From a virus, in the IMG/VR virus record IMGVR_UViG_3300032282_003810, positions 1 through 37,189 of that record: a DNA stretch of 37,189 nt, one strand, 5' to 3'. The notes beneath the pieces were generated by a model. That model made no database searches, was not told the DNA's origin, and saw only the letters and a program-made list of their open reading frames with translations. Numbering within the stretch: the first letter of the stretch is position 1; the number at the start of each line of letters is the position of its first letter. Made by a program: the position numbers and the translations under genes. Below are positions 6,660 to 27,271 of the stretch, one piece after another.

Positions 6660-6688
6660 AAATCCTTAGCAAGATTTAAAACTGCTAA
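6660..6688 (+). ncRNA. H-type RNA pseudoknot, copy 1 of 7
   Basis: Stem 1 is AAATC/GATTT around an 8-nt loop CTTAGCAA; the loop's TTAGCA pairs with TGCTAA downstream after an AAAAC linker. Relative to other copies (TGAGCA with TGCTCA) both sides of stem 2 changed together, a compensatory change. It lies just after the 6654 stop. Confidence 0.75.
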
Positions 6689-6708
6689 TTTTTCCTAGCG
6701 TGTCGAGC

Positions 6709-6724
6709 TGTGAGATTAATCACT
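6709..6724. promoter_or_regulatory. CRP/GlxR-like operator
   Basis: TGTGA-GATTAA-TCACT, one mismatch, centred about 54 bp upstream of the 6771 start. Confidence 0.55.
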
Positions 6725-6734
6725 TTAAGAGGAT

Positions 6735-6770
6735 TTGACATTTTTTCCCTAAGTGTGCTAAGATTATTTT
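6735..6770 (+). promoter_or_regulatory. Leaderless promoter of the 6771 gene
   Basis: TTGACA-N18-TAAGAT with TGC extended -10, then 6 nt to ATG. Confidence 0.7.
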
Positions 6771-6920
6771 ATGTCAACTAAGAAAACAACTGAGGAATTA
6801 CGCAGGCTTATGGAATTACGCCGTAGCAATGCTGCCTCTGCTGTTCCTTCTAAAAAAGTCTACTCTCGCAAGGGTAGAAAATGTCAGTCCGAAATGCTAC
6901 AATTAAAAAATAACAACTAA
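6771..6920 (+). CDS. 49-residue basic hypothetical protein
   Basis: Starts MSTKKTTEELRRLMELRRS; Arg/Lys-rich, probably nucleic-acid binding by charge alone. It has its own leaderless promoter, and its 3' end contains the TGTCAG-type promoter of the next gene. No family recognised. Confidence 0.6.
   Translation: MSTKKTTEELRRLMELRRSNAASAVPSKKVYSRKGRKCQSEMLQLKNNN
6882..6903 (+). promoter_or_regulatory. TGTCAG-N10-TACAAT promoter, intragenic
   Basis: TGTCAG, 10 nt ending TGC, TACAAT; precedes the 6937 ATG with a GAAAGG ribosome-binding site. Confidence 0.55.
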
Positions 6921-6936
6921 GAAAGGTCGCCCCACT

Positions 6937-7116
6937 ATGACATTCGAAAACGATGAATTCTATGATGAGTTCTACTCTACTACCTGCCCTAAGTGTAATG
7001 AAAATGCTGTTGATGAATATATGCCAGTGTGTGATTCTTGCTGGTTAAATGAATTGGCTGATTCTGTTACTAATGAGGATCTTGCCTTAGAAATGAGTCT
7101 TTCACTTGACTGCTGA
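6937..7116 (+). CDS. Acidic zinc-ribbon protein
   Basis: A 59-residue protein starting MTFENDEFYDEFYST with CPKC and CDSC pairs 16 residues apart, a probable zinc ribbon. Strongly acidic otherwise. Ends four bases before the GP88-like gene. Function unknown. Confidence 0.65.
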   Translation: MTFENDEFYDEFYSTTCPKCNENAVDEYMPVCDSCWLNELADSVTNEDLALEMSLSLDC

Positions 7117-7120
7117 TATA

Positions 7121-7840
7121 ATGAAACTAAAACGATCTAATGATAGAAAGGTGGCTAACCTTGTCACAAAAAATGGAAAGCAAGCCGCAATTGCGAACAC
7201 TTTCGGTTTACCTGCTGGAAAGGCTTACTCGTGCCCTGGTGCTACCTCTGTATGTGAGTCAGTCTGCTATGCGGGAAAACTCGAAAAGGTCTTCCCCTCA
7301 GTAAGAGTTAACTTACTTCATAATTGGTCCCTGCTAAAAGACGCTGATTACTTAACTATGCTTAATCTAATCGGTGAAATGATTGCTGATTTCAAAGCTG
7401 ATTGTCTTAAGAAAGACGCTCTAATGTTATTTCGTATCCATTGGGACGGCGATTTCTTTAATGATACTTATACTACGGCCTGGTCCGATGTAATTAAACT
7501 TAATCCTGATGTACAGTTTTGGGTTTATACTCGTGTAAAGTCTGCTGCTCTAATTCTTAAAGGTATTGAAAACCTTTCACTTTATTTTTCTGCTGATAGT
7601 GAAAATGTTAAAACTGCTGTTGATTTAAAAATTAATAGTGGTGTAAGAATGGCATACCTTGCTAAGAATTTTGCTATTGGTCAAGCAGATGTTAAAGAAA
7701 TGATTGGGCGCCCTGCTGCTAAGTGTCCTGAGAATAATAAACAAATTCCATTGATTAGCACTGCTGGATCTGCTTGTGTTTCTTGTAAATTATGTGTATA
7801 CTCTAAGAGTGACATAATTTTTTCTGCGACTAAGAAATGA
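7121..7840 (+). CDS. GP88-like phage protein
   Basis: A 239-residue protein. I take MKLKRSNDRK as the start because an earlier in-frame start would overlap the upstream gene. The order of motifs (GKAYSCPGA, SVCESVCYAGK, the LFRIHWDGDFFN strand, FWVYTR, and late cysteines CVSCKLC) matches the gene product 88 family seen in phages and plasmids. Conserved Cys pairs suggest metal binding. The biochemical role of the family is not known to me. Confidence 0.75.
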   Translation: MKLKRSNDRKVANLVTKNGKQAAIANTFGLPAGKAYSCPGATSVCESVCYAGKLEKVFPSVRVNLLHNWSLLKDADYLTMLNLIGEMIADFKADCLKKDALMLFRIHWDGDFFNDTYTTAWSDVIKLNPDVQFWVYTRVKSAALILKGIENLSLYFSADSENVKTAVDLKINSGVRMAYLAKNFAIGQADVKEMIGRPAAKCPENNKQIPLISTAGSACVSCKLCVYSKSDIIFSATKK

Positions 7841-7848
7841 TATAATTA

Positions 7849-7917
7849 ATGTTAAAAATAATTGTAATTTTTATTACTGTAATTTTCTTTTATGTACTTT
7901 TTGATTCCCCTCATTAG
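7849..7917 (+). CDS. 22-residue hydrophobic peptide, doubtful
   Basis: MLKIIVIFITVIFFYVLFDSPH, a possible membrane peptide just after the GP88 gene. TATAAT at 7841 is only two bases from the ATG, so it may be fortuitous. Confidence 0.25.
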   Translation: MLKIIVIFITVIFFYVLFDSPH

Positions 7918-7950
7918 GGATTTAAAAAACCCTAGCGTGTCGTCCACAGG

Positions 7951-7959
7951 TTATCCACA
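7951..7959 (+). promoter_or_regulatory. DnaA box TTATCCACA
   Basis: Exact box preceded by a near-match (TCGTCCACA, 7940-7948) and a GCGTGTCG motif (7935-7942). Confidence 0.6.
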
Positions 7960-7969
7960 AGCTTTAAGA

Positions 7970-7985
7970 TGTGAGATTAAACACA
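7970..7985. promoter_or_regulatory. CRP/GlxR-like site, degenerate
   Basis: TGTGA-GATTAA-ACACA, one mismatch; shares the GATTAA core with the sites at 5378 and 6709. Confidence 0.45.
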
Positions 7986-8022
7986 CCCAGATTTTGGTGG
8001 ATTAAGATAAAATATAGAAAAA

Positions 8023-8044
8023 TGTCAGTCGCTTATGGTAGGCT
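8023..8044 (+). promoter_or_regulatory. TGTCAG-N10-TAGGCT promoter
   Basis: TGTCAG, 10 nt ending TGG, TAGGCT, followed by TTACAGTATAAA as at the 4071 promoter. Confidence 0.55.
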
Positions 8045-8079
8045 TACAGTATAAATAAAAAGAAAGAAGGTTGCCCCCT

Positions 8080-8286
8080 ATGGCTACAGTTATAGATAAG
8101 ACAGATCACTATTTAATTTGGGACATATCTCATATCCATTGTGATGAAATACAATTTAAGTACCAGTGCCGTGTATGCGATGAGTTTATGGATTGCTACT
8201 ATTGTTCGTTTGACTATGATGAACCCTGCGATTGTCAGTCCGATATGGTAGGCTCAGTATTATTCACAACGAAAGAAGGAAACTAA
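8080..8286 (+). CDS. Cys-rich acidic protein
   Basis: A 68-residue protein starting MATVIDKTDHYLIWD; a TTG nine bases upstream in frame is less likely because AGAAGG sits before the ATG at a suitable distance. Seven Cys (CRVC, CYYC, CDC) suggest one or two zinc sites. The promoter of the next gene is inside its 3' end. Confidence 0.65.
   Translation: MATVIDKTDHYLIWDISHIHCDEIQFKYQCRVCDEFMDCYYCSFDYDEPCDCQSDMVGSVLFTTKEGN
8233..8254 (+). promoter_or_regulatory. TGTCAG-N10-TAGGCT promoter, intragenic
   Basis: Same hexamers as at 8023, inside the 8080 gene and upstream of the 8286 ATG. Confidence 0.5.
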
Positions 8287-8492
8287 TGTATAAGATAACT
8301 GTCGCCTATGATAACAATGCCCCACACTGGCAAAAAGATTATCCTGATGAAATGAAAGCGTGGCAAGCATTTTTTCAGTTTACCGATTGGGGAACGGCTA
8401 ACGAATACTCAACTGTCAATATTTACACTCCCGAATTGGTTTGCTACACAAAAGTATTTTATCGTGAAGGCAGAAGGGTAGTGAGTAAGTAA
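8286..8492 (+). CDS. Hypothetical protein
   Basis: A 68-residue protein starting MYKITVAYDNNAPHWQ, aromatic-rich, with the look of a small alpha/beta fold. TAATG overlaps at both ends. No family recognised. Confidence 0.6.
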   Translation: MYKITVAYDNNAPHWQKDYPDEMKAWQAFFQFTDWGTANEYSTVNIYTPELVCYTKVFYREGRRVVSK

Positions 8493-8620
8493 TGGCACTA
8501 TTTGAGTTTACCACTTTCATAACTATTGAGGCTGATAATGAAGAAGATGCCGTTCGTTGGTTTGACTATAAAACAGAAGATTTAGAAACATATGTCGCAG
8601 ATATAGAGGAGAAAATATAA
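8492..8620 (+). CDS. 42-residue beta-alpha protein
   Basis: MALFEFTTFITIEADNEEDA followed by VRWFDYKTED. The strand-loop-helix pattern (hydrophobic strand, A/T-D-x-E-E-D/E-A helix cap) recurs in the proteins at 8913, 11195 (C-terminus) and 17885. TAATG at both ends. Confidence 0.6.
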   Translation: MALFEFTTFITIEADNEEDAVRWFDYKTEDLETYVADIEEKI

Positions 8621-8913
8621 TGGGATCAGTTACAGCAATTGGATTAGCAGATACAGCGTTAGACTTAGAAACACAATTACTTTATCACCTTAAAGGTAAT
8701 CACTATCCACCAGTCCCCGCAGAAATGGTTGCCCCTTGTATTGAGGCAATTGACGCTGCCTATGATGAGGACTATGAGCGCATAATTGATATGCCTATGG
8801 TTGGCGACTTTCAGATACGCTGGCGTGGATTGACTCAAGCACCTGCGTGGGCTATCATTGAACAACACCACCTTAATTGGTTTATTGACCCAGTAGATGA
8901 GGATAACGAATAA
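8620..8913 (+). CDS. Hypothetical protein
   Basis: A 97-residue, mostly helical acidic protein (MGSVTAIGLADTALDLETQ, ending DPVDEDNE) behind a GAGGAG ribosome-binding site. TAATG coupling on both sides. No family recognised. Confidence 0.65.
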   Translation: MGSVTAIGLADTALDLETQLLYHLKGNHYPPVPAEMVAPCIEAIDAAYDEDYERIIDMPMVGDFQIRWRGLTQAPAWAIIEQHHLNWFIDPVDEDNE

Positions 8914-9110
8914 TGGCTAATACCTATAAACTAACTATGACTCACGAGTTTTACATTGAAACTAATGACATTGAGGAAGTCGTACGCAATTACCAATTCC
9001 CTGATTTTTCTGATTGCGAGTCTATTGTTGGCGAGCCAGAATATTTAATGGGTGGCAACGAATGGGCAGAGATGTCAAAAGCAGAATTAGATGCGGAGTT
9101 CGCAGGATGA
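8913..9110 (+). CDS. Small beta-alpha protein
   Basis: A 65-residue protein, MANTYKLTMTHEFYIETND then IEEVVRNYQ. It shares the strand plus acidic helix-cap layout of the 8492 protein and may be a distant paralogue. It overlaps the next gene (ATGA). Confidence 0.6.
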   Translation: MANTYKLTMTHEFYIETNDIEEVVRNYQFPDFSDCESIVGEPEYLMGGNEWAEMSKAELDAEFAG

Positions 9111-9223
9111 CAATAAATAAATGTGATTGCGTTGAACACGATTGTAATATTCAAGATGACTATACAATAGATGGCTATACTTGCGAGGAATGTTTTATGG
9201 ACTGCGTAGAAATGGATAACTAA
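9107..9223 (+). CDS. 38-residue Cys-rich protein
   Basis: MTINKCDCVEHDCNIQDD, then CEECFMDC: seven Cys and one His in 38 residues. Probable zinc-binding miniprotein. ATGA overlap with the previous gene. Confidence 0.6.
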   Translation: MTINKCDCVEHDCNIQDDYTIDGYTCEECFMDCVEMDN

Positions 9224-9466
9224 ATGTCTGCTACAATAAAAACTATGGAACTAATCTTTGCTGATCGTTTAATGCCAAATCAGCTAATGCTAAATGATTT
9301 AATCGGTATCTCAGATGAGGTTGTTGAAGTAACAGGCATTAGCGATAGCAACAATGGCGATGACTATCATATTGAGTTCATTGATGAGTTTGGTGAGAAA
9401 GATGTTATCACTTTCAAACATGATGAGATGATTTCTCTATATGTATATGTTGATAGTGATGAATAA
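9224..9466 (+). CDS. Acidic beta-rich hypothetical protein
   Basis: An 80-residue acidic protein beginning directly after the previous stop (MSATIKTMELIFADRLMP). Segments GISDEVVEVTGI and YHIEFIDEFG suggest a small beta-barrel. A hairpin terminator follows. Confidence 0.65.
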   Translation: MSATIKTMELIFADRLMPNQLMLNDLIGISDEVVEVTGISDSNNGDDYHIEFIDEFGEKDVITFKHDEMISLYVYVDSDE

Positions 9467-9476
9467 GTAATAAGTT

Positions 9477-9506
9477 AATTTCTGTGCTTCCCCGCAGAAA
9501 TTTTCT
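9477..9506 (+). terminator. Probable terminator hairpin
   Basis: AATTTCTG (9477-9484) pairs with CAGAAATT (9495-9502), followed by TTC. Ends the 8080-9466 run. Confidence 0.55.
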
Positions 9507-9511
9507 AGGGA

Positions 9512-9527
9512 TGTGAGATTTATCACA
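9512..9527. promoter_or_regulatory. CRP/GlxR-like operator, perfect
   Basis: TGTGA-GATTTA-TCACA, centred about 62 bp before the 9582 start, the classical spacing for CRP class I activation. Confidence 0.65.
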
Positions 9528-9546
9528 TTGTTATATTAAGGTTAAT

Positions 9547-9581
9547 TTGATATTTTTCCCCAAACCTGCTAAACTTAATTT
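9547..9581 (+). promoter_or_regulatory. Leaderless promoter of the 9582 gene
   Basis: TTGATA-N17-TAAACT with TGC extended -10, 6 nt, ATG. Confidence 0.7.
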
Positions 9582-9812
9582 ATGACTCAAACAATAACAG
9601 ACCCAATGCTGCAACCCTACTACTCTTGCGATCTTAGTATTTCTATTGTAAATATTGACGCAAAAAATAGACACCACGCAGAAGCAGTTATGCAAACTTT
9701 TATAGATGAAATTGCCAAAGTAATGGATAATGAAGTCCGTTGGGATGAGGCTAATTGGGAGATTATAGAAAATATATATGTTCCTGAATTGCAAAGTTGG
9801 GTTGAACAATGA
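9582..9812 (+). CDS. Hypothetical protein
   Basis: A 76-residue protein starting MTQTITDPMLQPYYSCDLS. Mixed alpha/beta. Expressed from a leaderless promoter under a perfect CRP-like site and overlapping the next ORF (ATGA). No family recognised. Confidence 0.65.
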   Translation: MTQTITDPMLQPYYSCDLSISIVNIDAKNRHHAEAVMQTFIDEIAKVMDNEVRWDEANWEIIENIYVPELQSWVEQ

Positions 9813-9913
9813 GTTTGCAAGAGTGCTGGATGTGCGGAAGTGAGCCGACTCATATGTCGGTGACTGAACTGAAAGATGTTTGCTGTAATTGTTGGGGCGA
9901 CTGTGATGATTAA
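9809..9913 (+). CDS. 34-residue Cys-rich protein
   Basis: MSLQECWMCGSEPTHMS, then CCNCWGDCDD: six Cys, probable zinc ribbon. ATGA overlap. Confidence 0.55.
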   Translation: MSLQECWMCGSEPTHMSVTELKDVCCNCWGDCDD

Positions 9914-9962
9914 AACAAAAATGCCTAGCGCAAATTTTAGCAAATGTCAAATAAGTTTAAGA

Positions 9963-9978
9963 TGTGATATTTATCACC
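9963..9978. promoter_or_regulatory. CRP/GlxR-like operator
   Basis: TGTGA-TATTTA-TCACC, one mismatch, centred about 62 bp upstream of the start predicted from 9998-10026. Confidence 0.55.
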
Positions 9979-9997
9979 CCCGAATTACGAGCAAGAT

Positions 9998-10026
9998 TTG
10001 ACATTTCTTAGATTTTCTGTCATACT
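9998..10026 (+). promoter_or_regulatory. Sigma70-like promoter TTGACA-N17-CATACT
   Basis: Consensus -35, TGT extended -10, and CATACT. With the TGTCAG promoter at 10086 it forms a tandem pair before the 10141 gene. Confidence 0.5.
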
Positions 10027-10085
10027 TAGGTATAACCAAATAACAATTCCATATAGTGAGATTTTTCAGATAACGATTTGGAAAA

Positions 10086-10107
10086 TGTCAGTAGGAAATG
10101 TTATACT
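10086..10107 (+). promoter_or_regulatory. TGTCAG-N10-TATACT promoter
   Basis: TGTCAG, 10 nt ending TGT, TATACT; about 34 nt upstream of the ATG with an AAAAGG ribosome-binding site. Confidence 0.65.
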
Positions 10108-10140
10108 TAATACACAACCCAAACAGAAAAGGAAAAAAAT

Positions 10141-10305
10141 ATGTCAGTAGCAACAGCAACTTACAAGGTAGGCGATACCTACACAACACAAAAAAACAAG
10201 GTAACTGGAACAATTTCAGAAATCACTCCACTTGCCAATGGTAATGTCCGTGTAAAACTTGATGTTAATGGTGTACCTCGTTACACTACTTGGACAGCAA
10301 AGTAA
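10141..10305 (+). CDS. 54-residue beta-rich protein
   Basis: Starts MSVATATYKVGDTYTTQ and continues with KVTGTISEITPLANGNVRV. The alternating pattern fits a small SH3-like or OB-like barrel. No family named. A monocistronic unit between a tandem promoter and a pseudoknot. Confidence 0.65.
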   Translation: MSVATATYKVGDTYTTQKNKVTGTISEITPLANGNVRVKLDVNGVPRYTTWTAK

Positions 10306-10320
10306 TTCCTTAAAAGAAAA

Positions 10321-10350
10321 TGTCCTGAGTATGACAACTAAAACTGCTCA
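10321..10350 (+). ncRNA. H-type RNA pseudoknot, copy 2 of 7
   Basis: Stem 1 TGTC/GACA around loop CTGAGTAT; TGAGTA pairs with TGCTCA (one G-U) after linker ACTAAAAC. Confidence 0.75.
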
Positions 10351-10357
10351 CTTAAAA

Positions 10358-10379
10358 TGTCAGACCCTCCCCCTATAAT
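10358..10379 (+). promoter_or_regulatory. TGTCAG-N10-TATAAT promoter
   Basis: TGTCAG, 10 nt (C-rich), consensus TATAAT. Drives the 10415 gene. Confidence 0.65.
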
Positions 10380-10414
10380 AGATAGATACCCCACAAACAG
10401 AAAAGAGAAACACA

Positions 10415-10837
10415 ATGGCACGAAGCAAAGCAATAAATGTAAAAGTACCAACACTTAAAATCATCAAGGCACTCGAAGCCGCACTTGCTAAGTTAGAAGC
10501 AGACTACGCAACACAAGAAGCCAACGAAGCAAAATATCTAAAAGCAGTAGAAAAGTGGAAAGCAGAAGTCTTTGAGTTTGCTATGGCAAATGTCAAGAAG
10601 TCTTTTAACCTTCGCACTAACTATCGCTCATACAACAACACGCTCAACATTGACTTTGACTTGACAGTATCAGAAAAAGAAATGCCAGCAGAGCCAGAAC
10701 GCACTTTCGAGTTTATTCACGCAAGCACTTATCGTGAGTCTAAGAAAGAATTGTCAAACGCAATTCGTATTCTAAAGATGACAGACGAGGAAGTAGTTAG
10801 CACCAGCACCTACAATGCGGTAGCCGAATACCTATAA
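10415..10837 (+). CDS. Coiled-coil phage protein
   Basis: A 140-residue protein starting MARSKAINVKVPTLKI. Residues about 15-55 form a charged coiled coil rich in Ala, Glu and Lys, followed by a beta-containing segment (NNTLNIDFDLTVSE) and a helical end. I do not recognise a named domain. Codon use is unusually C-ending compared with neighbours, hinting at good expression. Confidence 0.7.
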   Translation: MARSKAINVKVPTLKIIKALEAALAKLEADYATQEANEAKYLKAVEKWKAEVFEFAMANVKKSFNLRTNYRSYNNTLNIDFDLTVSEKEMPAEPERTFEFIHASTYRESKKELSNAIRILKMTDEEVVSTSTYNAVAEYL

Positions 10838-10872
10838 ATAATTTAGGGGGCAATTAAAGTCCTAAACCTAAA

Positions 10873-10900
10873 CGACCTGAGTAAGTCGCAAAACTGCTCA
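10873..10900 (+). ncRNA. H-type RNA pseudoknot, copy 3 of 7
   Basis: Stem 1 CGAC/GTCG around loop CTGAGTAA; TGAGTA pairs with TGCTCA after CAAAAC. It lies 26 nt upstream of the 10927 ATG, so it may also act as a leader. A TTAGG/CCTAA hairpin precedes it. Confidence 0.75.
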
Positions 10901-10926
10901 ACACAAAACTTTAGAAAGGTAGCCCA

Positions 10927-11190
10927 ATGATTAGCACAATGTTACAGATTAGAGAAGCAACAGAGGAAGCCTTAATGGATCCTGAACTAATGGATTTAGC
11001 TGGATTTATTTTTCAGAACCATAAGTTTATTGAGGATGAGCAATTGGCTCAGTTATTATTTAAGTATAGCGCTTCGCTATCAGCACTAACAGCAACTTAT
11101 GTTTCACAGGTTTGTTTGTCACACTCAGATTTGTCAGATATGGTTGCTACAATTAAAGAAATGAATCAACTAACACAGGAAATAGGGTAG
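10927..11190 (+). CDS. Helical hypothetical protein
   Basis: An 87-residue, all-helical protein (MISTMLQIREATEEALMDP). Ribosome-binding site AAAGG followed by TAGCCCA before the ATG, the same TAGCCCA spacing as the next gene. No promoter is evident between the pseudoknot and the start, so it is probably co-transcribed with the 10415 gene. Confidence 0.65.
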   Translation: MISTMLQIREATEEALMDPELMDLAGFIFQNHKFIEDEQLAQLLFKYSASLSALTATYVSQVCLSHSDLSDMVATIKEMNQLTQEIG

Positions 11191-11194
11191 CCCA

Positions 11195-11602
11195 ATGGAT
11201 ACAACACTAATAGCAACAGAAACATTCTTGCGAGATGGACTGGCTAAGGCCACATTGCGAATAGCAGAACTAACAGAACACATTCAAAAAGTAACTCAGC
11301 GCTCATATTCTGATTCTGCAGAACGCAATCGTATGGTTGAAGCAATGCAGGAATGGACTCTTTGTGAATTAGAAAATAAAGATATAACAGAGGAGCAAGC
11401 AGAGGCCATTGCAGAAATAATGGGCTTTGAGTTAACAAAAGAATTCGAAGTTGAAGTTACAGTTATGTATTCTATTACTGTTAATGCTCGCACTGAAGAG
11501 GATGCACAAAATGCAATTCACGATATTGATTTTGATACCGTTGATTATAACTCAGACTCAATTCAATATTTATCATCATCAATTGATAGGATAGATATTT
11601 AG
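11195..11602 (+). CDS. Helical protein with C-terminal beta-alpha domain
   Basis: A 135-residue protein. Residues about 1-80 are helical (DTTLIATETFLRDGLAKA). The C-terminal third (FEVEVTVMYSITVNARTEED then AQNAIHDIDFD) repeats the strand plus acidic-cap helix unit of the small proteins at 8492, 8913 and 17885. No named family. Confidence 0.7.
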   Translation: MDTTLIATETFLRDGLAKATLRIAELTEHIQKVTQRSYSDSAERNRMVEAMQEWTLCELENKDITEEQAEAIAEIMGFELTKEFEVEVTVMYSITVNARTEEDAQNAIHDIDFDTVDYNSDSIQYLSSSIDRIDI

Positions 11603-11620
11603 TAGGGGGCTACTAATAAT

Positions 11621-11649
11621 GGACCTGAGCACAGTCTAAAAACTGCTCA
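11621..11649 (+). ncRNA. H-type RNA pseudoknot, copy 4 of 7
   Basis: Stem 1 GGAC/GTCT (one G-U) around loop CTGAGCACA; TGAGCA pairs with TGCTCA after AAAAAC. Just downstream of the 11602 stop and followed by TTTTCCTAGG. Confidence 0.75.
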
Positions 11650-11694
11650 AGATTTTCCTAGGGGGATTTTTTATATTTTGTCAAGTTTATAAGC

Positions 11695-11809: not shown

Positions 11810-12832
11810 GTGGCTCACGACTTAGAAACACAAAATGGTAAAACCTCATTCGCCTCATTCAGAGAACCTGCTTGGCACGGATTGGGAACTGTATTCACAG
11901 AAGAAAAAACTACATCAGAAATGCTTTCATTAGCAAATCTTAATGGGTGGAATGTTCGTTTAGAGGATTTAGAAACTCCCGCACATCTTACAAGCGACAA
12001 GGCATACCAATATGTTTTGCGTACTAATCCTACCGATAACACTCAAACAGATGTTTTGGGTGTAGTTGGTGAGCGTTATCACCCGTTACAAAATGAGGAT
12101 TTATTTTCATTCGGTGATAATATTCTTGACGGTGGTGGTCGTTGGGAAACTGCTGGCTCAATTAAAGGTGGGCGTGTAGTATTTGGCGCACTTGCCTTAG
12201 AGCGTGAAACAATTCTTGACCCTAATGGTGTAAATGATAAGGTAAAAACTTATTTGCTTATTAACACATCACACGATGGCTCGATTGCGATTCAAGCCTC
12301 AATTACTCCTGTTCGTGTAGTGTGCGCTAATACTCTTAACCTTGCTCTTAGTGGTGTAGGTCGTAAGAAAAATAAGGGTATCAAGCAATCTTTCAAGATT
12401 CGCCATACTCAAACTGCTAATGGCAAAGTACAAATCGCTCGTGAGACTCTTGGTCTTGCTAATGCTTATATGGACGAATTCGATATTATGGCTAAGGCTA
12501 TGATTGAAAAAGAAGTTTCTGCTAAGTCATTCAATGACATCATTCTTGCTGCTTATCCTAAGCCAGACAAGGATTCTAAGGGTTCACTAAAAAAGTGGGA
12601 AAATAAAGTTGATGTTATCAACGATATTTATACAGGCGAGTTTAATGGTATGATTGCTGGTAATGCGTGGGGTGCGTTTAATGCGCTAACCGAACGCCTT
12701 GATTGGTATCGTTCTGCTCGTGGCGGGAATAATGAATCTATTCTCGCAAGCGCAAGTGGTTTTGACCCTGCTATTAACGCAGAAAAAAATCGTTTGCTAA
12801 AAGTAGTTCAAAATGTTATGTCTTTAGCATAA
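11810..12832 (+). CDS. DUF932 phage/plasmid-like protein
   Basis: A 340-residue protein with a GTG start 6 bases after AAGGA. The N-terminal PAWHGLG, the central VGERYHPLQNED, and TPVRVVCANTL followed by HT-x-NGKVQIARE are the hallmark order of DUF932 (TIGR03299), a family widespread on phages and plasmids with no settled function. Length is normal. It is the largest protein of the accessory region and a stand-alone transcription unit ending in a pseudoknot and tRNA-Asp. Confidence 0.9.
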   Translation: MAHDLETQNGKTSFASFREPAWHGLGTVFTEEKTTSEMLSLANLNGWNVRLEDLETPAHLTSDKAYQYVLRTNPTDNTQTDVLGVVGERYHPLQNEDLFSFGDNILDGGGRWETAGSIKGGRVVFGALALERETILDPNGVNDKVKTYLLINTSHDGSIAIQASITPVRVVCANTLNLALSGVGRKKNKGIKQSFKIRHTQTANGKVQIARETLGLANAYMDEFDIMAKAMIEKEVSAKSFNDIILAAYPKPDKDSKGSLKKWENKVDVINDIYTGEFNGMIAGNAWGAFNALTERLDWYRSARGGNNESILASASGFDPAINAEKNRLLKVVQNVMSLA

Positions 12833-12837: not shown

Positions 12838-12866
12838 AAATCCTGAGCAAGATTTAAAACTGCTCA
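12838..12866 (+). ncRNA. H-type RNA pseudoknot, copy 5 of 7
   Basis: Stem 1 AAATC/GATTT around loop CTGAGCAA; TGAGCA pairs with TGCTCA after AAAAC. It lies between the DUF932 stop (12832) and tRNA-Asp (12874). Confidence 0.75.
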
Positions 12867-12873: not shown

Positions 12874-12947
12874 GGTCTGTTAGCTCAGTTGGTTAGAGCG
12901 CTACCCTGTCACGGTAGAGGTCGTCGGTTCAAGTCCGATACAGATCG
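12874..12947 (+). tRNA. tRNA-Asp (GTC)
   Basis: A 74-nt cloverleaf: acceptor GGTCTGT/ACAGATC with one G-U, discriminator G as expected for Asp, anticodon loop CTGTCAC, T-loop GGTTCAAGTCC. CCA is not encoded. It sits alone, 7 nt after the pseudoknot, probably on the DUF932 transcript. Confidence 0.93.
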
Positions 12948-13021
12948 CAAAATCCCCTAGAAAAATTATATTTTTGCCAAATCATTATTAAGATGAACAT
13001 AACATTTTCCCAGAATTTCGA

Positions 13022-21912: not shown

Positions 21913-21913
21913 A

Positions 21914-22758: not shown

Positions 22759-23177
22759 TGAATTTTCAATCAGAATCTAAAAAGTCAGGAGATGCTTTTG
22801 AAGAACTTGTATATCAAGATTTGGTTAATAGGGGTTTTAGTGATATTCAGTCAAATGTTTATATTGAAAATGCTGGTTGTGAGATAGACTTTCTTGCTAC
22901 CCAACATCCTTGGGATAAGATTGAGTATGTAGAAGCAAAAGGTGGGCTTGATGGCGAAGGCAAAAGGCCAGGAGCTAAAAGAACTGATAATGTAAAAAAA
23001 GCTATTGCTAATGGATCATTAATAAAATCATTACATCCAGAAGTTTATTATGTAGTTTATTTTTCATCTACTCCAAGCGAAGGCTACGCTACTGAAATGA
23101 TTAACACTGCTTTAAAATATTATATTATTGATGAAGTTAGATATCTTCTTCCAATACAACTTGACTTTCAATCTTAA
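22758..23177 (+). CDS. PD-(D/E)XK-family nuclease
   Basis: A 139-residue protein starting MNFQSESKKSGDAFEE at the TAATG junction. E15 in the first helix, D44 in CEIDFLA, and E59-A-K61 in YVEAKGG form the PD-(D/E)XK active-site pattern. Size fits a minimal nuclease domain as in Holliday-junction resolvases, VRR-Nuc or Mrr-like restriction folds. DNA cleavage or repair is likely; specificity unknown. Confidence 0.75.
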   Translation: MNFQSESKKSGDAFEELVYQDLVNRGFSDIQSNVYIENAGCEIDFLATQHPWDKIEYVEAKGGLDGEGKRPGAKRTDNVKKAIANGSLIKSLHPEVYYVVYFSSTPSEGYATEMINTALKYYIIDEVRYLLPIQLDFQS

Positions 23178-23195
23178 AAAGAGTATACTTAAGAT
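23161..23195 (+). promoter_or_regulatory. Leaderless promoter TTGACT-N17-TATACT
   Basis: 6 nt to the ATG at 23196; the -35 lies within the end of the nuclease gene. Confidence 0.7.
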
Positions 23196-23405
23196 ATGAT
23201 CAACATGGAAATCCCTGACCCATTTACTGTTTTTCGCATAGCTAAATATGCTAAACAAAAATATGGTGCTAGATATGACTTCTTTTCTGGTGAATGGGAT
23301 GTTAACTGTGGTGCTTGTGGAGAACTTATTAATGCCAATACCCGCAAACTTTTAATGAAAATACGTTTATATCATACAAGAAATGAATGTTTAGGAGGTT
23401 ACTAG
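23196..23405 (+). CDS. Hypothetical protein with CGAC
   Basis: A 69-residue protein (MINMEIPDPFTVFRIAKYA) with CGAC and a late Cys. The layout 'W-V-C-ACG-L...R-H' resembles small C2HC-type phage zinc proteins. TAG/GTG overlap with the next ORF. Confidence 0.6.
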   Translation: MINMEIPDPFTVFRIAKYAKQKYGARYDFFSGEWDVNCGACGELINANTRKLLMKIRLYHTRNECLGGY

Positions 23406-23494
23406 TGAAAGTATTATTTCCATTATTTACGTTTGCTTGTGGTTGGATAGTCTGTTATATTCAGATGACATATGGAGTTGATCAAGGTGAATAG
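23405..23494 (+). CDS. 29-residue membrane peptide (GTG start)
   Basis: VKVLFPLFTFACGWIVCYIQ, one hydrophobic helix. Overlaps both neighbours. Tentative because of size. Confidence 0.4.
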   Translation: MKVLFPLFTFACGWIVCYIQMTYGVDQGE

Positions 23495-23591
23495 AATTGT
23501 TATTTGTCCAGTATGTAAAAAAGAATTAGAAGTTAGAAAAGGAATTTTTGCACATGATACATTATATAGACATTCTAAGGAGCATAAATGA
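23487..23591 (+). CDS. 34-residue C2H2-type zinc-finger protein (GTG start)
   Basis: VNRIVICPVCKKELEVRKG, then HDTLYRHSKEH: CxxC and H-x-x-x-H elements like a single zinc finger. Overlaps both neighbours by ATGA-type junctions. Confidence 0.5.
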   Translation: MNRIVICPVCKKELEVRKGIFAHDTLYRHSKEHK

Positions 23592-23752
23592 ATAAGTATT
23601 TACTTGATCTTGGAGATAATAAGTTTATTGAAGTTCCAAAAGATATTCAATATAAAATAATTCAAGATAAGTTAATATCTACATATTATTGGTCGGTTGG
23701 TTTTCTTTCCACTATAGTTGGTTTTTTATTAGGAATTATTGCAGCAAAATAA
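23588..23752 (+). CDS. 54-residue membrane protein
   Basis: MNKYLLDLGDNKFIEVPK, then a C-terminal transmembrane helix (SVGFLSTIVGFLLGIIAA). ATGA overlap with the previous ORF. Ends 12 bases before the tRNA cluster. Confidence 0.6.
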   Translation: MNKYLLDLGDNKFIEVPKDIQYKIIQDKLISTYYWSVGFLSTIVGFLLGIIAAK

Positions 23753-23764
23753 TTAAATAAATTA

Positions 23765-23837
23765 CCCTCTGTAGTTCAGTGGATAGAACAATGGACTTCT
23801 AAGCCATGTGTCGCAAGTTCGATTCTTGCCAGGGGGA
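23765..23837 (+). tRNA. tRNA-Arg (TCT)
   Basis: A 73-nt cloverleaf: acceptor CCCTCTG/CAGGGGG with one wobble, anticodon loop CTTCTAA, T-arm GCAAG-TTCGATT-CTTGC, discriminator A. First of three adjacent tRNAs. Reads AGA, a codon common in this AT-rich genome. Confidence 0.92.
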
Positions 23838-23842
23838 CACGG

Positions 23843-23916
23843 GCACCAGTAGCCAAGTTGGTTAAGGCACCGAACTCATAATTCGGCTATCATAGGTTCA
23901 AGTCCTATCTGGTGTA
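23843..23916 (+). tRNA. tRNA with CAT anticodon (Met or Ile2)
   Basis: A 74-nt cloverleaf: acceptor GCACCAG/CTGGTGT with a G1-U72 pair, anticodon loop CTCATAA, T-arm ATAGG/CCTAT. The G1-U72 pair excludes a canonical initiator C1-A72. Elongator Met or lysidine-modified Ile both remain possible. Confidence 0.85.
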
Positions 23917-23920
23917 CTAA

Positions 23921-23991
23921 GCGAGTGTTGCATAATGGTAGTGCACCATCCTTCCAAGTTGGTTGTGCCAGTTCGATTCTGGTCACTCGCT
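23921..23991 (+). tRNA. tRNA-Gly (TCC)
   Basis: A 71-nt cloverleaf: acceptor GCGAGTG/CACTCGC, anticodon loop CTTCCAA, T-loop TTCGATT, discriminator T. The anticodon stem CCATC/GTTGG contains a U-U mismatch. Confidence 0.88.
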
Positions 23992-24009
23992 CTAGTTAGG
24001 CTAAGTGGC

Positions 24010-24044
24010 TTGACTTTTAACAATGAAAGGTATATAATATAACT
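24010..24044 (+). promoter_or_regulatory. Leaderless promoter TTGACT-N17-TATAAT
   Basis: 6 nt to the ATG at 24045. Confidence 0.7.
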
Positions 24045-24233
24045 ATGGATAAAAACAATGCACTAACAATTATGCTAGATTCAATCAACGCTGATAATAA
24101 AGAATTTTGCTTACAGTCTGGAATGTCTGAAGCAGAAGCTGACAAGAATATAGAGCAAAGTCAAATGAGTCTTGGTTTAATGATGTCTAATATTTATGAC
24201 AAATTGGTAGAAGCTAAAATTATAGTTGAATAA
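24045..24233 (+). CDS. Helical hypothetical protein
   Basis: A 62-residue, mostly helical protein (MDKNNALTIMLDSINADN). Last plus-strand gene, abutting a convergent minus gene with no gap. No family recognised. Confidence 0.6.
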   Translation: MDKNNALTIMLDSINADNKEFCLQSGMSEAEADKNIEQSQMSLGLMMSNIYDKLVEAKIIVE

Positions 24234-24365
24234 TTATTTTTTCTTTGGGTGATTTGGTTCATATAAAGCTATTTTAGCTTTAATTCTGCCATCTTTATAT
24301 AGTCTAACAATCCATCCATCTTTGATTTGTGTTGCATTAAATGATTGAGACTTCTTTTTTGGCAT
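24234..24365 (-). CDS. 43-residue basic protein
   Basis: MPKKKSQSFNATQIKDGW, then VRLYKDGRIKAKIALYEP; TAATG overlap with the upstream gene. Small beta-rich basic protein, no family recognised. Confidence 0.55.
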   Translation of the reverse strand: MPKKKSQSFNATQIKDGWIVRLYKDGRIKAKIALYEPNHPKKK

Positions 24366-25525
24366 TATCGGAACAACCTGTCTGTTCTGGTATCTCTTGT
24401 AAAATCTTTTCCAAAATCAGCAAATAAAGCTTTGTCTTTTTCACGATTAACAATTCCTCTTGACCAAGAGAATCCAGCATCTCCGCCCCATGCTAACCAC
24501 ATAATATAACCATTAGATGGGTTTGCTGTATTGCCCCAGTCTTTACCCTTCTTATCTACTTCATGGCGTGAGAAGTATGAGTACATTCTTTTAACAGTAC
24601 TAAGAGATAAAGTTTCTCCTCTTGCTAACTGCCCTGCACGAGTCCAACCAACTGCTGTTCCTGCACCAGTAGCCTTTCCATCTTCTTTAAATTTAATTGC
24701 TCTACGAGCAGCAGATCTTGCCCCTGCGGGTGGCGAGTATCCATCAGCTTTAGATACTTTAATTTCATCTTCATAATCTTCTAAACTAATATTTGGCATA
24801 TCAATTCTGGCAATATCAGACATCAATGCTCCGATTGAATAAGGTGTGTAATAATATACACCATCATCTTCTTCTAACATTCTTACAGCAACTGCTGGAT
24901 TTTCTGGTGTAGACTCAACTGCGTATGGATTTCCTGGTTGACCATAAGTTCCACCTTCAAGCATTACATGTTCAACTTGACCAATAACAGGTCCTTCAGT
25001 TGTCATGGCAATAACAAAATCACCTTCTACAATTGGATTATCCATTTTGGCTACTGGAATACAGTTAGGAACCATGCGACCATTATCTCCTGGCTTCATA
25101 CCACGCTGAGTGTATCCATCCCAACATGGTGCTTGCTTTTCTATATCTGGACAATATTCTGATTTACCCATTTGTGAATCAAACATGGCCATTTGGGTTT
25201 CTGCGTCTAAACCACTACATAGTGGACAACTTGCACAAGAAATTTGTTGCTCTTCACACATAGCACAGTCACAGCCTTGGTAAGTATTTGTAGGCATTAT
25301 AGGATTTTCTGGCAATGATGCTTCTGCTTTTCCAAATGCTGATCCAGCCCAAATATCTACACCAGGTTTATTATGAATACCAGAACCAGTTGGTCTACCA
25401 GAATTAGTTGTCATATATTGTGGCTTCTTCATTCCAACAGATGGATTGATGTGAGGTGATGGGTTTGCTGGAGTTGGATCTGTTACGATTGCATTGTAAG
25501 AAACATCCATTGGTGTTTCAGACAT
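24365..25525 (-). CDS. Phage protein with prohead-associated C-terminal domain
   Basis: A 386-residue protein; MSETPMDVSYN at 25525 is chosen because it forms TAATG with the dps stop. Residues about 95-130 contain a Cys cluster (CDCAMCEEQ, CASCPLC) suited to metal binding. The centre has a beta-rich part (EGDFVIAMTTEGPVIG). The C-terminal about 115 residues (YSPPAGARSAARRAIKF, TAVGWTRAGQLARGE, SRHEVDKKG, WLAWGGDAGFSWSR) match a domain I associate with phage head-protease or portal-linked proteins. Probably virion or head-maturation related. Confidence 0.6.
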   Translation of the reverse strand: MSETPMDVSYNAIVTDPTPANPSPHINPSVGMKKPQYMTTNSGRPTGSGIHNKPGVDIWAGSAFGKAEASLPENPIMPTNTYQGCDCAMCEEQQISCASCPLCSGLDAETQMAMFDSQMGKSEYCPDIEKQAPCWDGYTQRGMKPGDNGRMVPNCIPVAKMDNPIVEGDFVIAMTTEGPVIGQVEHVMLEGGTYGQPGNPYAVESTPENPAVAVRMLEEDDGVYYYTPYSIGALMSDIARIDMPNISLEDYEDEIKVSKADGYSPPAGARSAARRAIKFKEDGKATGAGTAVGWTRAGQLARGETLSLSTVKRMYSYFSRHEVDKKGKDWGNTANPSNGYIMWLAWGGDAGFSWSRGIVNREKDKALFADFGKDFTRDTRTDRLFR

Positions 25526-25974
25526 TAGTCCATTTCCACTTCTTTTACTGATGCTGATAGCATCCAATGCCAACGTTGATGTTGGTCCATACGCTCTGCA
25601 AAGAAATTTGCAAGAGCATGTTGTCTATTTGCTGTGGCCATATCACAAGCATCTACTAATTTAGCAAGAACCATATCATTACACATAAGCAAATCAGCAG
25701 ACATAACCATTGGATCAGAAGAAACATCAGGCTCGCCAACTTCATTTAATTGCATAAATCTTGATAGTTTAAATGGTGCATAAGCATCTAACTTGCGAAG
25801 CCATTCCGCATATGTATCTGTTGCTTCTTCATAGTCTGCATAAATATCTCCAAAAAATGAGTGGAATTGAGGGAAATCGTCACCTTCTACATTCCAATGA
25901 TATCCATGAGCTTTTAGCTTAAGAGTAATATTATCTGCAAGCAGCACTTTTAATAGATTAATTAATTCTTCCAT
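25525..25974 (-). CDS. dps: Dps/ferritin-like protein
   Basis: A 149-residue protein. The inter-subunit ferroxidase ligands of Dps are present with canonical spacing: H26 (HWN), H38, D53 and E57. Length and helical pattern fit a four-helix bundle that forms dodecamers, oxidises Fe(II) with peroxide and can protect DNA. It lacks the Lys-rich N-terminal tail of DNA-binding Dps. Its leaderless start is preceded by a pseudoknot and lies downstream of pstS. Confidence 0.88.
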   Translation of the reverse strand: MEELINLLKVLLADNITLKLKAHGYHWNVEGDDFPQFHSFFGDIYADYEEATDTYAEWLRKLDAYAPFKLSRFMQLNEVGEPDVSSDPMVMSADLLMCNDMVLAKLVDACDMATANRQHALANFFAERMDQHQRWHWMLSASVKEVEMD

Positions 25975-25987
25975 AACTATTATTATA
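25975..25987 (-). promoter_or_regulatory. Leaderless-type -10 box of dps
   Basis: Minus-strand TATAAT (25982-25987), 7 nt before ATG; just downstream of a pseudoknot. Confidence 0.55.
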
Positions 25988-25997
25988 GCATAAGAAA

Positions 25998-26029
25998 TGA
26001 GCAGTTTATAGACGACTGCTCAGGTCTAT
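25998..26029 (-). ncRNA. H-type RNA pseudoknot, copy 6 of 7
   Basis: Minus strand: stem 1 ATAGAC/GTCTAT (6 bp) around CTGAGCAGTC; TGAGCAGT pairs with ACTGCTCA (8 bp). The strongest copy. A TGCTC further upstream (26067-26071) could compete for GAGCA, and GTCAGC/GCTGA hairpin arms lie between, so the pstS-dps spacer may switch structures. Confidence 0.75.
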
Positions 26030-26122
26030 CAGCCACGGGTTTCAGCCTGCTGACTCTCTTTTCATCGAGCATCCGTTGTAAAACCTCTTCAAGTCTTAAT
26101 CGGAATGTTATATATTATACTA

Positions 26123-27169
26123 CTATTTTGAACTTATTTCTGCTACCCTTGCCTTTGAAAACTTAAGCATAGCGCTTCTGATTGGAGAGTATCCAAGGTC
26201 TTCAGCTTTCTTGCCACAAGTATCAAGCATAAAGTTAAAGAACTTTTTAACTGAATCATTCTTTGAGTTCTTTTCTTTGTATGCTACTCCATAAGTAAAG
26301 GTAGATATGTTATAGGATAGTTTATTAGGGTTCTTATAGTTTATCTTAACTACCCCGCTTTTATCTGGAACAAAATCTCCAAGGAATACTGATGCTGCGG
26401 AAATAGTTGGCTGCATAAACCTTCCAGCCTCATTCTCAACAGACACCGTTTTAAGTCCCCTTGCGTATGATATCTCATTGTATCCAATAGATCCGTTTGT
26501 ACTTCCTTGAACCATTGCAACCCCTTGTGATCCTGAAGCACTATTCATATAAACGCTCTTTGAAATATCAGTAGGAAATGCATTAGCAAAATTTTTATTT
26601 CCTGGCTTTGTCCAGATTGTTGGAGCAACAGCATTAAGGTATGAAGTAAAAACTTCTGAGGTTCCAGATCCATCAATGCGATAGACAACCCTAATCTTTG
26701 TTTCTGGTATCTTAGGTACTCTTGTTCCTATTAGGTTTTCTTTTAGTATTTGTGGATCATTCCACATTGTTATTTGTCCCGCAAAAACTTTGGCTAATGT
26801 ATCTCTGCTCATCTTAATATTAATTTTATATCCATCAAGTCTATAGATAATCCCAACTGGACCTGCAACCAATGGAACGTATACAAATTCTTTTGATGGT
26901 TTAATTTCTGATGCTGAGTATGGAACATCTGACATAGCAAAATCCATTACACCGTTTGTAAGCATGTTCTTTCCAGCACCAGATCCAATGGCATTATAGC
27001 CAACAGAGTCTGCTCCAGACTTAGTAAATTCAATCCTACATCTGTCTATAAAGTTAGCAGCAAATGAGGATCCAGCACCTTGTAGGTTATCGGCATGTGA
27101 AGTAGTAATAAAAAAAGCATTGGATATTATTGCCAATGCTATGGGTAAAACAATGAATTTAGATTTCAT
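26123..27169 (-). CDS. pstS: PstS phosphate-binding protein
   Basis: A 348-residue protein. Residues 1-26 form a signal peptide ending TSHA. GAGSSFAANFIDRC, then YNAIGSGAGKNML, DFAMSDVPY and RIDGSGTSEVFTSYL are the phosphate-contacting PstS motifs. No lipobox Cys at the cleavage site, unlike many Gram-positive PstS. It would capture phosphate for the host Pst ABC transporter during infection. Normal length. Flanked on both sides by pseudoknots. Confidence 0.92.
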   Translation of the reverse strand: MKSKFIVLPIALAIISNAFFITTSHADNLQGAGSSFAANFIDRCRIEFTKSGADSVGYNAIGSGAGKNMLTNGVMDFAMSDVPYSASEIKPSKEFVYVPLVAGPVGIIYRLDGYKINIKMSRDTLAKVFAGQITMWNDPQILKENLIGTRVPKIPETKIRVVYRIDGSGTSEVFTSYLNAVAPTIWTKPGNKNFANAFPTDISKSVYMNSASGSQGVAMVQGSTNGSIGYNEISYARGLKTVSVENEAGRFMQPTISAASVFLGDFVPDKSGVVKINYKNPNKLSYNISTFTYGVAYKEKNSKNDSVKKFFNFMLDTCGKKAEDLGYSPIRSAMLKFSKARVAEISSK

Positions 27170-27181
27170 AATTATATTGTA
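27170..27181 (-). promoter_or_regulatory. Leaderless-type -10 box of pstS
   Basis: Minus-strand TACAAT (27176-27181), 6 nt before ATG. No obvious Pho box was seen upstream. Confidence 0.5.
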
Positions 27182-27243
27182 TCGTGTTCAAGTCTATATT
27201 CTTAGTAAAATTGGTTAACGCAATCATAACTTTGAGTGAATAA

Positions 27244-27271
27244 TGAGCCTTTTAAACACATGCTCAGGTGT
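27244..27271 (-). ncRNA. H-type RNA pseudoknot, copy 7 of 7
   Basis: Minus strand: stem 1 ACAC/GTGT around CTGAGCAT; TGAGC pairs with GCTCA after TTAAAAG. Preceded by an 8-bp hairpin CTTGTGTG/CACACAAG (about 27272-27320). Between hsp20 and pstS. Confidence 0.7.

Follow-up and report, generated by a model that had tools for sequence, protein, structure and literature searches.

A compact RNA pseudoknot anchored to stop codons in phage genomes and its possible role at mRNA 3' ends

The DNA analysed is a viral stretch of 37,189 nucleotides (IMG/VR virus record IMGVR_UViG_3300032282_003810, positions 1 to 37,189), referred to below as the window. Between its genes lie copies of a short element in which a first stem (S1) is interleaved with a second stem (S2) formed by the S1 loop and a downstream strand (Table 1). 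The initial annotation had listed seven copies; all seven are present, but only six are canonical. In copies 1-6, every S2 pair forms and AAAC is present, with copy 1 carrying a double change in S2 relative to TGAGCA/TGCTCA, whereas copy 7 is degenerate and not a clean member, because S2 pairs at only 5/6 positions and AAAAG replaces AAAC. The third S1 pair is located 7 nt past the upstream stop codon both in copy 1 (TAA at 6652-6654) and in copy 5 (stop of the DUF932 gene). A tRNA-Asp gene begins 7 nt further downstream of copy 5, and RNase P cutting at this tRNA would turn copy 5 into the 3' end of the upstream mRNA. Copy 2 is followed by a promoter-like TATAAT sequence, and an ATG at 10927 lies 26 nt past the end of copy 3. 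A conserved non-coding RNA has copy 6 as its 3' end, and a TATAAT sequence comes next; the region encoding this RNA has homologues at L007, L008, L044, L054, L060, L085 and L096 and had no match in Rfam. DUF932 and Hsp20 genes, which precede copies 5 and 7, are also the commonest genes directly upstream of copies in other phages.

Table 1 Positions of the pseudoknot copies and adjacent features in the window.
Feature	Positions	Strand	Characteristics
Pseudoknot copy 1	6660..6688	+	S1 AAATC/GATTT; S2 TTAGCA/TGCTAA; linker TAAAAC
Pseudoknot copy 2	10321..10350	+	S1 TGTC/GACA; S2 TGAGTA/TGCTCA; linker end AAAAC
Pseudoknot copy 3	10873..10900	+	S1 CGAC/GTCG; S2 TGAGTA/TGCTCA
Pseudoknot copy 4	11620..11649	+	S1 TGGAC/GTCTA; junction of 2 nt; S2 TGAGCA/TGCTCA
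DUF932 gene (phrog_1221)	11810..12832	+	upstream of copy 5
Pseudoknot copy 5	12838..12866	+	S1 AAATC/GATTT; S2 TGAGCA/TGCTCA
tRNA-Asp (GTC)	12874..12948	+	immediately 3' of copy 5
Conserved non-coding RNA region	25998..26125	-	own TATAAT; variable hairpin; copy 6 at its end
Pseudoknot copy 6	25998..26029	-	S1 ATAGAC/GTCTAT; junction of 3 nt; S2 TGAGCA/TGCTCA
Pseudoknot copy 7, degenerate	27244..27271	-	S1 ACAC/GTGT; S2 TGAGCA/GGCTCA; downstream of Hsp20 gene
Hsp20 gene	27323..27739	-	upstream of copy 7

In a relaxed scan of both strands of the window, these seven copies obtained the best scores (17.0-17.5 for six of them and 15.0 for copy 7), and the remaining matches scored 14.5 or less. Since low-scoring matches were equally common, by number, in shuffled sequence, the top seven are distinguished by their score and their shared sequence. 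The core pattern CTGAGYA-N-AACTGCTCA was found five times in the window compared to zero times for a reversed-pattern control. A broad scan for any H-type pseudoknot returned 119 matches, barely above the 71-112 obtained in shuffled sequence, so the signal lies in the shared sequence and not in the fold alone.

Based on its sequence, the element is predicted to be a compact H-type RNA pseudoknot of about 28 nt, in which an S1 of 3-4 bp and an S2 of 6 bp are connected by a 1-nt loop C, a single junction nucleotide (hardly ever G) and a linker of 7 nt with AAAC at its end. The loop C and AAAC were each present in 67/67 copies from a search that left the linker free and required neither of them; the U after AAAC and the U at loop position 2 were fixed in the family search patterns. 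A free-form scan of 239 loci recovered 254 copies versus one in reversed sequence. When the variable S2 positions were left free in viral scans, 105/107, 102/108 and 86/92 distinct matches were complementary there, and S1, constrained only at its closing C-G, paired in nearly all of them. For 347 copies without a shared flanking 12-mer, the top seven column pairs by APC-corrected mutual information were exactly the S1 and S2 pairs. In a covariation count over 51 sequences, 97.1% of cells were paired and 103 cells carried double changes, compared to 37.6 in shuffled controls, with a covariation score of 0.519 versus 0.157 for shuffled and at most 0.142 for slid controls. The H-type assignment is in line with two interleaved helices that both covary, and the covarying pseudoknot first proposed from the window is thus borne out in copies beyond it. 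Its absence from named RNA families held as well: Rfam 15 covariance models, riboswitches such as preQ1 included, gave no meaningful match at E-values up to 10, whether applied to the whole window or to short stretches around copies 2 and 6, and open-literature searches yielded no report describing the element. The pseudoknot is a new RNA family, putatively of the already known decay-barrier kind.

A search for further copies in other phages revealed a family far larger than the seven copies of the window. Hundreds of viral contigs that are unrelated to one another contain related pseudoknots, as do isolate phages, including S. aureus, Lactobacillus, Bacillus, Rhizobium, roseobacter, Arthrobacter, Mycobacterium, cyanobacterial and crAss-like phages. 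Phage genomes carry several copies each, next to diverse genes; in several Gram-positive phages, scaffold and capsid genes are located downstream of the element. In two large samples of bacterial genomes, the strict pattern matched the seed genomes alone, which indicates that the element is mainly viral. In a cellular sub-group, the pseudoknot is located between a mini-ORF, whose stop codon is part of the pseudoknot or directly adjoins it, and, at several loci, a terminator-like hairpin. E. coli genomes gave nothing beyond 19-nt partial matches within genes, gammaproteobacterial phages gave no full-length match and one phage query gave no match. Two genome matches, in G010 and G013, were judged to be due to chance, and matches in Synechococcus phage ACG-2014a, which fall within CDSs and span 72% of the query, were not counted.

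Among 550 non-redundant viral copies, 423 had an ORF stop at most 78 nt upstream. The gap between stop and pseudoknot was 0-5 nt in 7 copies, 6 nt in 109, 7 nt in 51 and 8 nt in 21; S1 typically begins 6-7 nt past the stop and almost never nearer, independently of the distance to the next gene. Within long intergenic regions, 69/167 copies were located within 15 nt of the stop, whereas only 23/167 had the next start at a distance of up to 35 nt. It is the preceding stop, and not the gene that follows, to which the copies are anchored. The stops in front of them have a strong termination context (TAA in 70%, a following T in 50%), and the spacers are poor in G. The location after stop codons and ahead of promoters or tRNAs that had been noted for the window is borne out.

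A tRNA was found within 60 nt downstream of 33/550 viral copies, on the same strand in all 33 cases, and 30 of these tRNAs begin 2-13 nt after the copy (mode 3-4). Counted from the side of the tRNAs, 42 of 249 first-of-cluster tRNAs in the loci had a copy within 20 nt upstream, and the annotated isolates Nostoc phage NMeng1, Arthrobacter phage Molivia and Synechococcus phage S-CRM01 agree with this adjacency. Seven of the twelve hammerhead-III-like ribozymes in 12.3 Mb had a copy whose end lies 5-20 nt upstream of the cleavage site, the expected adjacency being 0.7% per ribozyme; the hammerhead at L129 exceeds the Rfam threshold for RF00008, and those at L695 and L392 reach E-values of 4e-7 and 8e-4, respectively. 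Predicted cleavage elements are thereby located 2-20 nt downstream of the pseudoknot in a subset of copies.

Since the upstream RNA would have the pseudoknot as its 3' end after a cut by RNase P or a ribozyme at these sites, we favour, with confidence about evenly balanced, the reading that the pseudoknot caps phage mRNA 3' ends against 3'-to-5' exonucleases, just clear of the terminating ribosome. At the observed spacing, the pseudoknot would be encoded just past the footprint of this ribosome, and translation to the stop would, presumably for steric reasons, leave the fold unmelted. The 3' end would be cut a few nucleotides downstream, by RNase P at the adjacent tRNA or, in some phages, by the adjacent hammerhead, and copies with neither would presumably have their end cut by an endonuclease. 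The resulting end of the upstream mRNA would consist of the stop codon, 6 nt, the pseudoknot and a short tail, and exonucleases of the PNPase, RNase R and RNase II type would probably find no toehold and a mechanically stable block. In densely packed operons, the pseudoknot would substitute for a terminator hairpin as mRNA end-protector. Among the roles suggested in the initial annotation, 3'-end stabilisation coupled to RNA processing is best supported, because the copies are stop-anchored and have RNase P or hammerhead sites a few nucleotides downstream; nothing supports ligand sensing, because the surrounding genes are diverse and without a regulated partner. Copy 6 speaks for a cap, as it ends a non-coding RNA that has a promoter-like sequence of its own. 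Counting against it, the majority of copies precede a CDS from which no known cleavage signal separates them, a cap seems redundant in the cellular sub-group with its terminator-like hairpin, and the apparent absence from gammaproteobacterial phages is unpredicted, as those hosts also have 3'-to-5' exonucleases. The invariant C, AAAC and spacing also resemble a motif that blocks 5'-to-3' enzymes, and the position ahead of scaffold and capsid genes in Gram-positive phages suits protection of downstream RNA.

More tentatively, all copies may belong to a single ancient and horizontally spread family that serves tailed phages of hosts across many phyla as a general mRNA-end device, coupling termination (by the 6-nt spacing), 3'-end formation by RNase P or ribozymes, and exonuclease resistance. 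This device would be a prokaryotic counterpart of xrRNAs, with a cellular branch attached to a conserved gene for an HCxxGC mini-protein.

The main rival, which rests on the likeness of the core to coremin, an xrRNA of plant viruses, is a prokaryotic xrRNA that would halt 5'-to-3' exonucleases such as RNase J after decay of the upstream gene, so that the downstream cistron, tRNA or non-coding RNA survives, by analogy with coremin and Xrn1; we consider it rather unlikely. The core shared with coremin (GUCCGAAGACGUUAAACUAC) comprises an S1 of 3-4 bp with C-G as its closing pair, a loop that begins with C and ends with A plus one nucleotide before S1 closes, and a spacer of exactly 7 nt ending in AAAC and followed by U, this U being preset by our search pattern (PMC10520033). 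This likeness keeps RNase stalling from the 5' side among the candidates, all the more as the loop C and AAAC are invariant without having been required. In vitro, a flaviviral xrRNA stops RNase J1 of bacteria (PMC5760640). The hosts of good isolate-phage matches are almost all from groups expected to have RNase J, and RNase J is encoded in 11/15 pattern-match genomes versus 0/20 Bacteroidia and 1/20 of the class Gammaproteobacteria; the scaffold and capsid genes behind the element would be plausible beneficiaries. However, the anchoring is to the upstream stop, a hammerhead or RNase P cut would part the pseudoknot from the very RNA whose survival it should ensure, and hp2 and loop G2 of coremin are missing. 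Moreover, crAss-like phages and a Flavobacterium contig carry genuine copies, and no RNase J was found there.

We regard as improbable a ribosome-linked role, in which the pseudoknot abuts the ribosome at the stop codon and blocks post-termination sliding or re-initiation, or stalls or aids termination. The sharp edge at 6 nt equals the distance that brings a downstream pseudoknot into contact with the ribosome, as in frameshift spacers, and the stop position in the cellular mini-ORF group would fit as well. In addition, coremin slows scanning eukaryotic ribosomes (PMC10520033). On the other hand, tRNAs directly follow pseudoknots, copies also cap a non-coding RNA, a generic ribosome block would not need strict sequence conservation, and readthrough is unsupported, as the reading frame is not kept open beyond the stop any more than the other frames and the stop context is strong. 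It is highly doubtful that the element regulates several genes together as an aptamer or as the target of an RNA-binding protein from phage or host: the invariant unpaired C and AAAC could serve as recognition positions in the multiple copies per phage genome, but the 1-nt loop and A-rich linker are needed for the compact pseudoknot's own fold, the neighbouring genes are diverse, and a single protein partner is unlikely because the hosts span many phyla.

A stimulator of readthrough or frameshifting was rejected, since frame 0 past the pseudoknot is no more open and the gaps are not limited to one frame, as was an intrinsic terminator, with T at only 28-43% in columns +25 to +31 and an S1 of just 3-4 bp. 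An anti-Rho role is not favoured: the element is carried by phages of cyanobacteria, which to our knowledge lack Rho, and gave no full-length match in phages of gammaproteobacteria, which have it.

The analysis describes a 28-nt RNA with a near-invariant core and covariation in two helices that is found in a great many phages, laboratory models among them. Should it be an mRNA-end cap, it would illustrate a way in which compact, terminator-free phage operons delimit their individual messages and protect them, the ends being made by RNase P and hammerheads. Should it block RNase J, bacteria would have a natural xrRNA, RNase J1 never being naturally met by the viral xrRNAs tested in published work (PMC5760640). 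The pseudoknot could also be used as a small portable RNA-stability part.

Several known systems invite comparison. Intrinsic terminator hairpins and REP elements stabilise mRNA 3' ends close behind the stop codon and are, like the proposed cap, 3'-end structures, but the pseudoknot lacks a U tract and its 3' end apparently results from cleavage by RNase P or a hammerhead. Luteovirus-type frameshift pseudoknots are also H-type, with a short loop 1, an A-rich loop along stem 1 and a distance of ~6 nt from the decoding codon; unlike them, the phage pseudoknot has no slippery site or open extension, is followed by tRNAs and ribozymes and is strongly conserved in sequence. Flaviviral and luteoviral/tombusviral xrRNAs are compact pseudoknotted RNAs, too, and are considered mechanical exonuclease barriers, whereas the pseudoknot is smaller (~28 nt) and without a three-way junction or ring of that type. 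Phage hammerhead and HDV-like theta ribozymes are RNA cleavage elements between genes or near tRNAs (RF00008; PMC10879173); hammerheads occur directly 3' of the pseudoknot, which is their upstream partner and has no ribozyme core. In its core, the pseudoknot resembles coremin (xrRNA_C), which occurs in RNA viruses such as benyviruses and cucumoviruses and is often located where the 3' UTR begins or near a stop codon (PMC10520033), comparable to the pseudoknot. The coremin loop (YGAD or YGNNAD) needs G at position 2, whereas the loop C-UGAGYA-N has a U there that is part of S2. Unlike in coremin, the six central loop nucleotides pair with the six nucleotides after AAAC to form a true covarying pseudoknot, and the position of hp2 is occupied by the 3' strand of S2 pairing with the hp1 loop; moreover, coremin belongs to eukaryotic RNA viruses, and the pseudoknot to the DNA genomes of phages and bacteria.

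The seven copies that the initial annotation had described as an H-type pseudoknot family between genes were all recovered in the window (the entire virus record, 37,189 bases), which carries phage genes (DUF932, gp88-like, endolysin, Hsp20) and five tRNAs. In a relaxed scan of both strands they took the best seven scores, copies 1-6 near-identically at the top and copy 7 below; copy 7 pairs at 5/6 positions of stem 2 and has AAAAG in place of the AAAC of all good copies. Since a generic search of the window for any pseudoknot of such shape found barely more than in shuffled sequence, the signal is carried by the shared sequence.

A viral collection searched with CCTGAGYA-N(2-20)-AAACTGCTCA and a bacterial genome collection searched with a stricter pattern each gave at least one full list of matches, the fetched loci being among the matches listed. 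A scan of 239 loci allowing any stem-2 sequence found 254 copies, compared to 1 in reversed sequence. In three scans, chosen stem-2 positions were left free and stem 1 was fixed only at its closing C-G pair; among the distinct hits, the free positions were complementary in 105/107, 102/108 and 86/92 (e.g. TGGGCA/TGCCCA, TGGACA/TGTCCA, TAAGCA/TGCTTA, TTAGCA/TGCTAA, TGAGTA/TACTCA). The top APC-corrected mutual information fell exactly on the stem-1 and stem-2 pairs (347 copies, flanks without a common 12-mer), and in a formal count 97.1% of cells were paired and 103 carried a double change vs 37.6 in shuffles, so that the covariation first noted within one genome holds in both stems. With only the stems fixed (GTC/GAC, TGAGCA/TGCTCA) and loop 1, junction and entire linker free, loop 1 was C and the linker ended in AAAC in 67/67 non-redundant new loci each; the junction position holds T or A, seldom C and hardly ever G. 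The consensus fold is therefore a stem 1 of 3-4 bp with a closing C-G pair, a loop 1 of C, a stem 2 of 6 bp, a 1-nt junction and a 7-nt linker ending in AAAC.

Positions of features in the window and at pattern-matched loci
Feature	Sequence	Position	Strand	Detail
Copy 1	window	6660	+	
Copy 2	window	10321	+	
Copy 3	window	10873	+	
Copy 4	window	11620	+	
Copy 5	window	12838	+	third stem-1 pair 7 nt past DUF932 stop; tRNA-Asp 7 nt downstream
Copy 6	window	25998-26029	-	
Copy 7	window	27244-27271	-	
Non-coding RNA region ending in copy 6	window	25998-26125	-	own TATAAT
Ferritin-like and PstS-like phosphate-binding protein genes	window	25528-25974 and 26126-27169	-	
Stretch free of annotated genes	L246	1960-2640		
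Type III hammerheads	L129	7270-7680	-	intergenic
Mini-ORF loci	L133, L134, L140, L142, L150, L162, L164, L166, L184, L191, L199, L201, L207, L211, L213, L216, L225, L232, L235, L236	at pattern match		

An ORF stop lies ≤78 nt upstream in 423/550 non-redundant viral copies. From the stop to the third stem-1 pair, the gap measures 6 nt in 109 copies and 7 nt in 51, with just 7 copies below 6 nt; such an edge would be expected of a pseudoknot that has to remain folded beside a ribosome with the stop codon in its A site. The peak at 6-7 nt persists where the next start is distant, and in long intergenic regions 69/167 copies are close to the stop vs 23/167 close to the next start. At the pattern match of L220, L240, L161 and L177, a hairpin (e.g. 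CTCGAcTGAgtTCGAG) with a stop codon (TGA, TAA or TAG) in its loop precedes the pseudoknot.

A tRNA follows within 60 nt in 33/550 copies, always on the same strand and in 30 of these at 2-13 nt (mode 3-4), and 7/12 hammerhead-III-like ribozymes (all loci) cut 5-20 nt past a pseudoknot (chance expectation 0.7%); every locus having been fetched for its pseudoknot, these figures tell what lies next to pseudoknots, and not how often tRNAs or ribozymes in general have one. L129 passes the Rfam threshold for the hammerhead family RF00008, L695 and L392 reach 45.9 and 34.2 bits, and the pseudoknot-hammerhead loci form about five independent groups. Type III hammerheads lie between genes in L129, L009, L012, L392, L695 and L167, and most of them follow immediately after a pseudoknot; in L129 two pseudoknot-hammerhead units are arranged in tandem, and the single contig of L167 carries four hammerhead-like sequences.

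The proteins that recurred upstream were DUF932 and Hsp20 (8 of 107 each) and, in 5 cases, ribonucleotide reductase; those encoded downstream were more mixed (PhoH, 4). The ferritin-like and PstS-like genes of the window phage are probable auxiliary metabolic genes. Copy 6 forms the 3' terminus of a roughly 105-nt non-coding RNA, which matches no Rfam family and is conserved in phages (L007, L008, L044, L054, L060, L085, L096), its hairpin stem varying in sequence with complementarity kept. In crAss-like phage cr7_1 (L246), the pseudoknot lies within roughly 600 nt free of annotated genes, where a sequence resembling a tRNA T arm also occurs and an unannotated structured RNA may be encoded. 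At 20 bacterial-genome loci, none viral, the pseudoknot overlaps or abuts the 3' end of a conserved ORF of roughly 20 codons with the motif HCxxGC or HCxxCG (e.g. MKKYAVPRIAHCSEGCRPQS*), a strong ribosome-binding site, in several a terminator-like hairpin directly after, and ordinary chromosomal neighbours (seryl-tRNA synthetase, DUF72, others).

Full-length matches among isolates comprised phages of S. aureus (e.g. B166, 80, phiETA3), Lactobacillus (KC5a, phi jlb1, phiEF-1.1) and Latilactobacillus (TMW 1.1365 P1), the Bacillus phage Page group, thermophilic phage D6E, Rhizobium RHph_TM phages, Paracoccus ParMal1, roseophage SIO1, CRP-13, Lentibacter and Celeribacter phages, Arthrobacter phage Molivia, Mycobacterium phage Labelle, Nostoc NMeng1, Synechococcus S-EIVl, Microcystis Mwe-JY13, Acaryochloris A-HIS1 and crAss-like cr7_1. 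Synechococcus S-CRM01 has an exact 24-nt match at a gene end with a tRNA 7 nt downstream. Erwinia, Vibrio, Pseudomonas and E. coli records gave only 16-19-nt partials, nearly all within genes. RNase J (TIGR00649) was strong in 11/15 genomes with a pattern match, 0/20 Bacteroidia and 1/20 Gammaproteobacteria class genomes. Hosts thus lean towards RNase J carriers, the exceptions being crAss-like phages and one contig each of Flavobacterium and Polynucleobacter, in a picture drawn from a handful of BLAST queries and assembled genomes possibly holding stray phage contigs.

Cleavage by RNase P or a hammerhead a few nucleotides past the pseudoknot would make it the last structure of the upstream RNA. 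Because of this, and of the anchoring to the stop codon, we favour a role as 3'-end cap, to which we give an even chance; the RNA that ends in copy 6 also fits. Against it, the RNA ends of pseudoknot transcripts are themselves deduced, many copies precede ordinary genes, and the cellular sub-group has terminator-like hairpins after the pseudoknot. The main rival is a barrier to 5'-to-3' exonucleases. Spacing and invariant nucleotides agree with the coremin core of plant-virus exoribonuclease-resistant RNAs (xrRNAs), GUC-CGAA-GAC-GUU-AAAC-U (PMC10520033), and an xrRNA from a flavivirus blocks RNase J1 in vitro (PMC5760640), but the loop G2 and second hairpin that coremin requires are both absent from the phage pseudoknot. 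The 6-nt edge would follow from a ribosome-linked role, although readthrough is unsupported. The pseudoknot could also be bifunctional.

The initial annotation could not match the pseudoknot to a named RNA family; no Rfam family matches it, and no description of it was found in the open papers searched. Membership in coremin is ruled out by the two missing features, and the pseudoknot may at most function like it. A structured RNA controlling decay at message ends is an already known kind; what is new is how this RNA folds, how strictly it is spaced from stop codons and cleavage sites, and how widely it occurs among phages.
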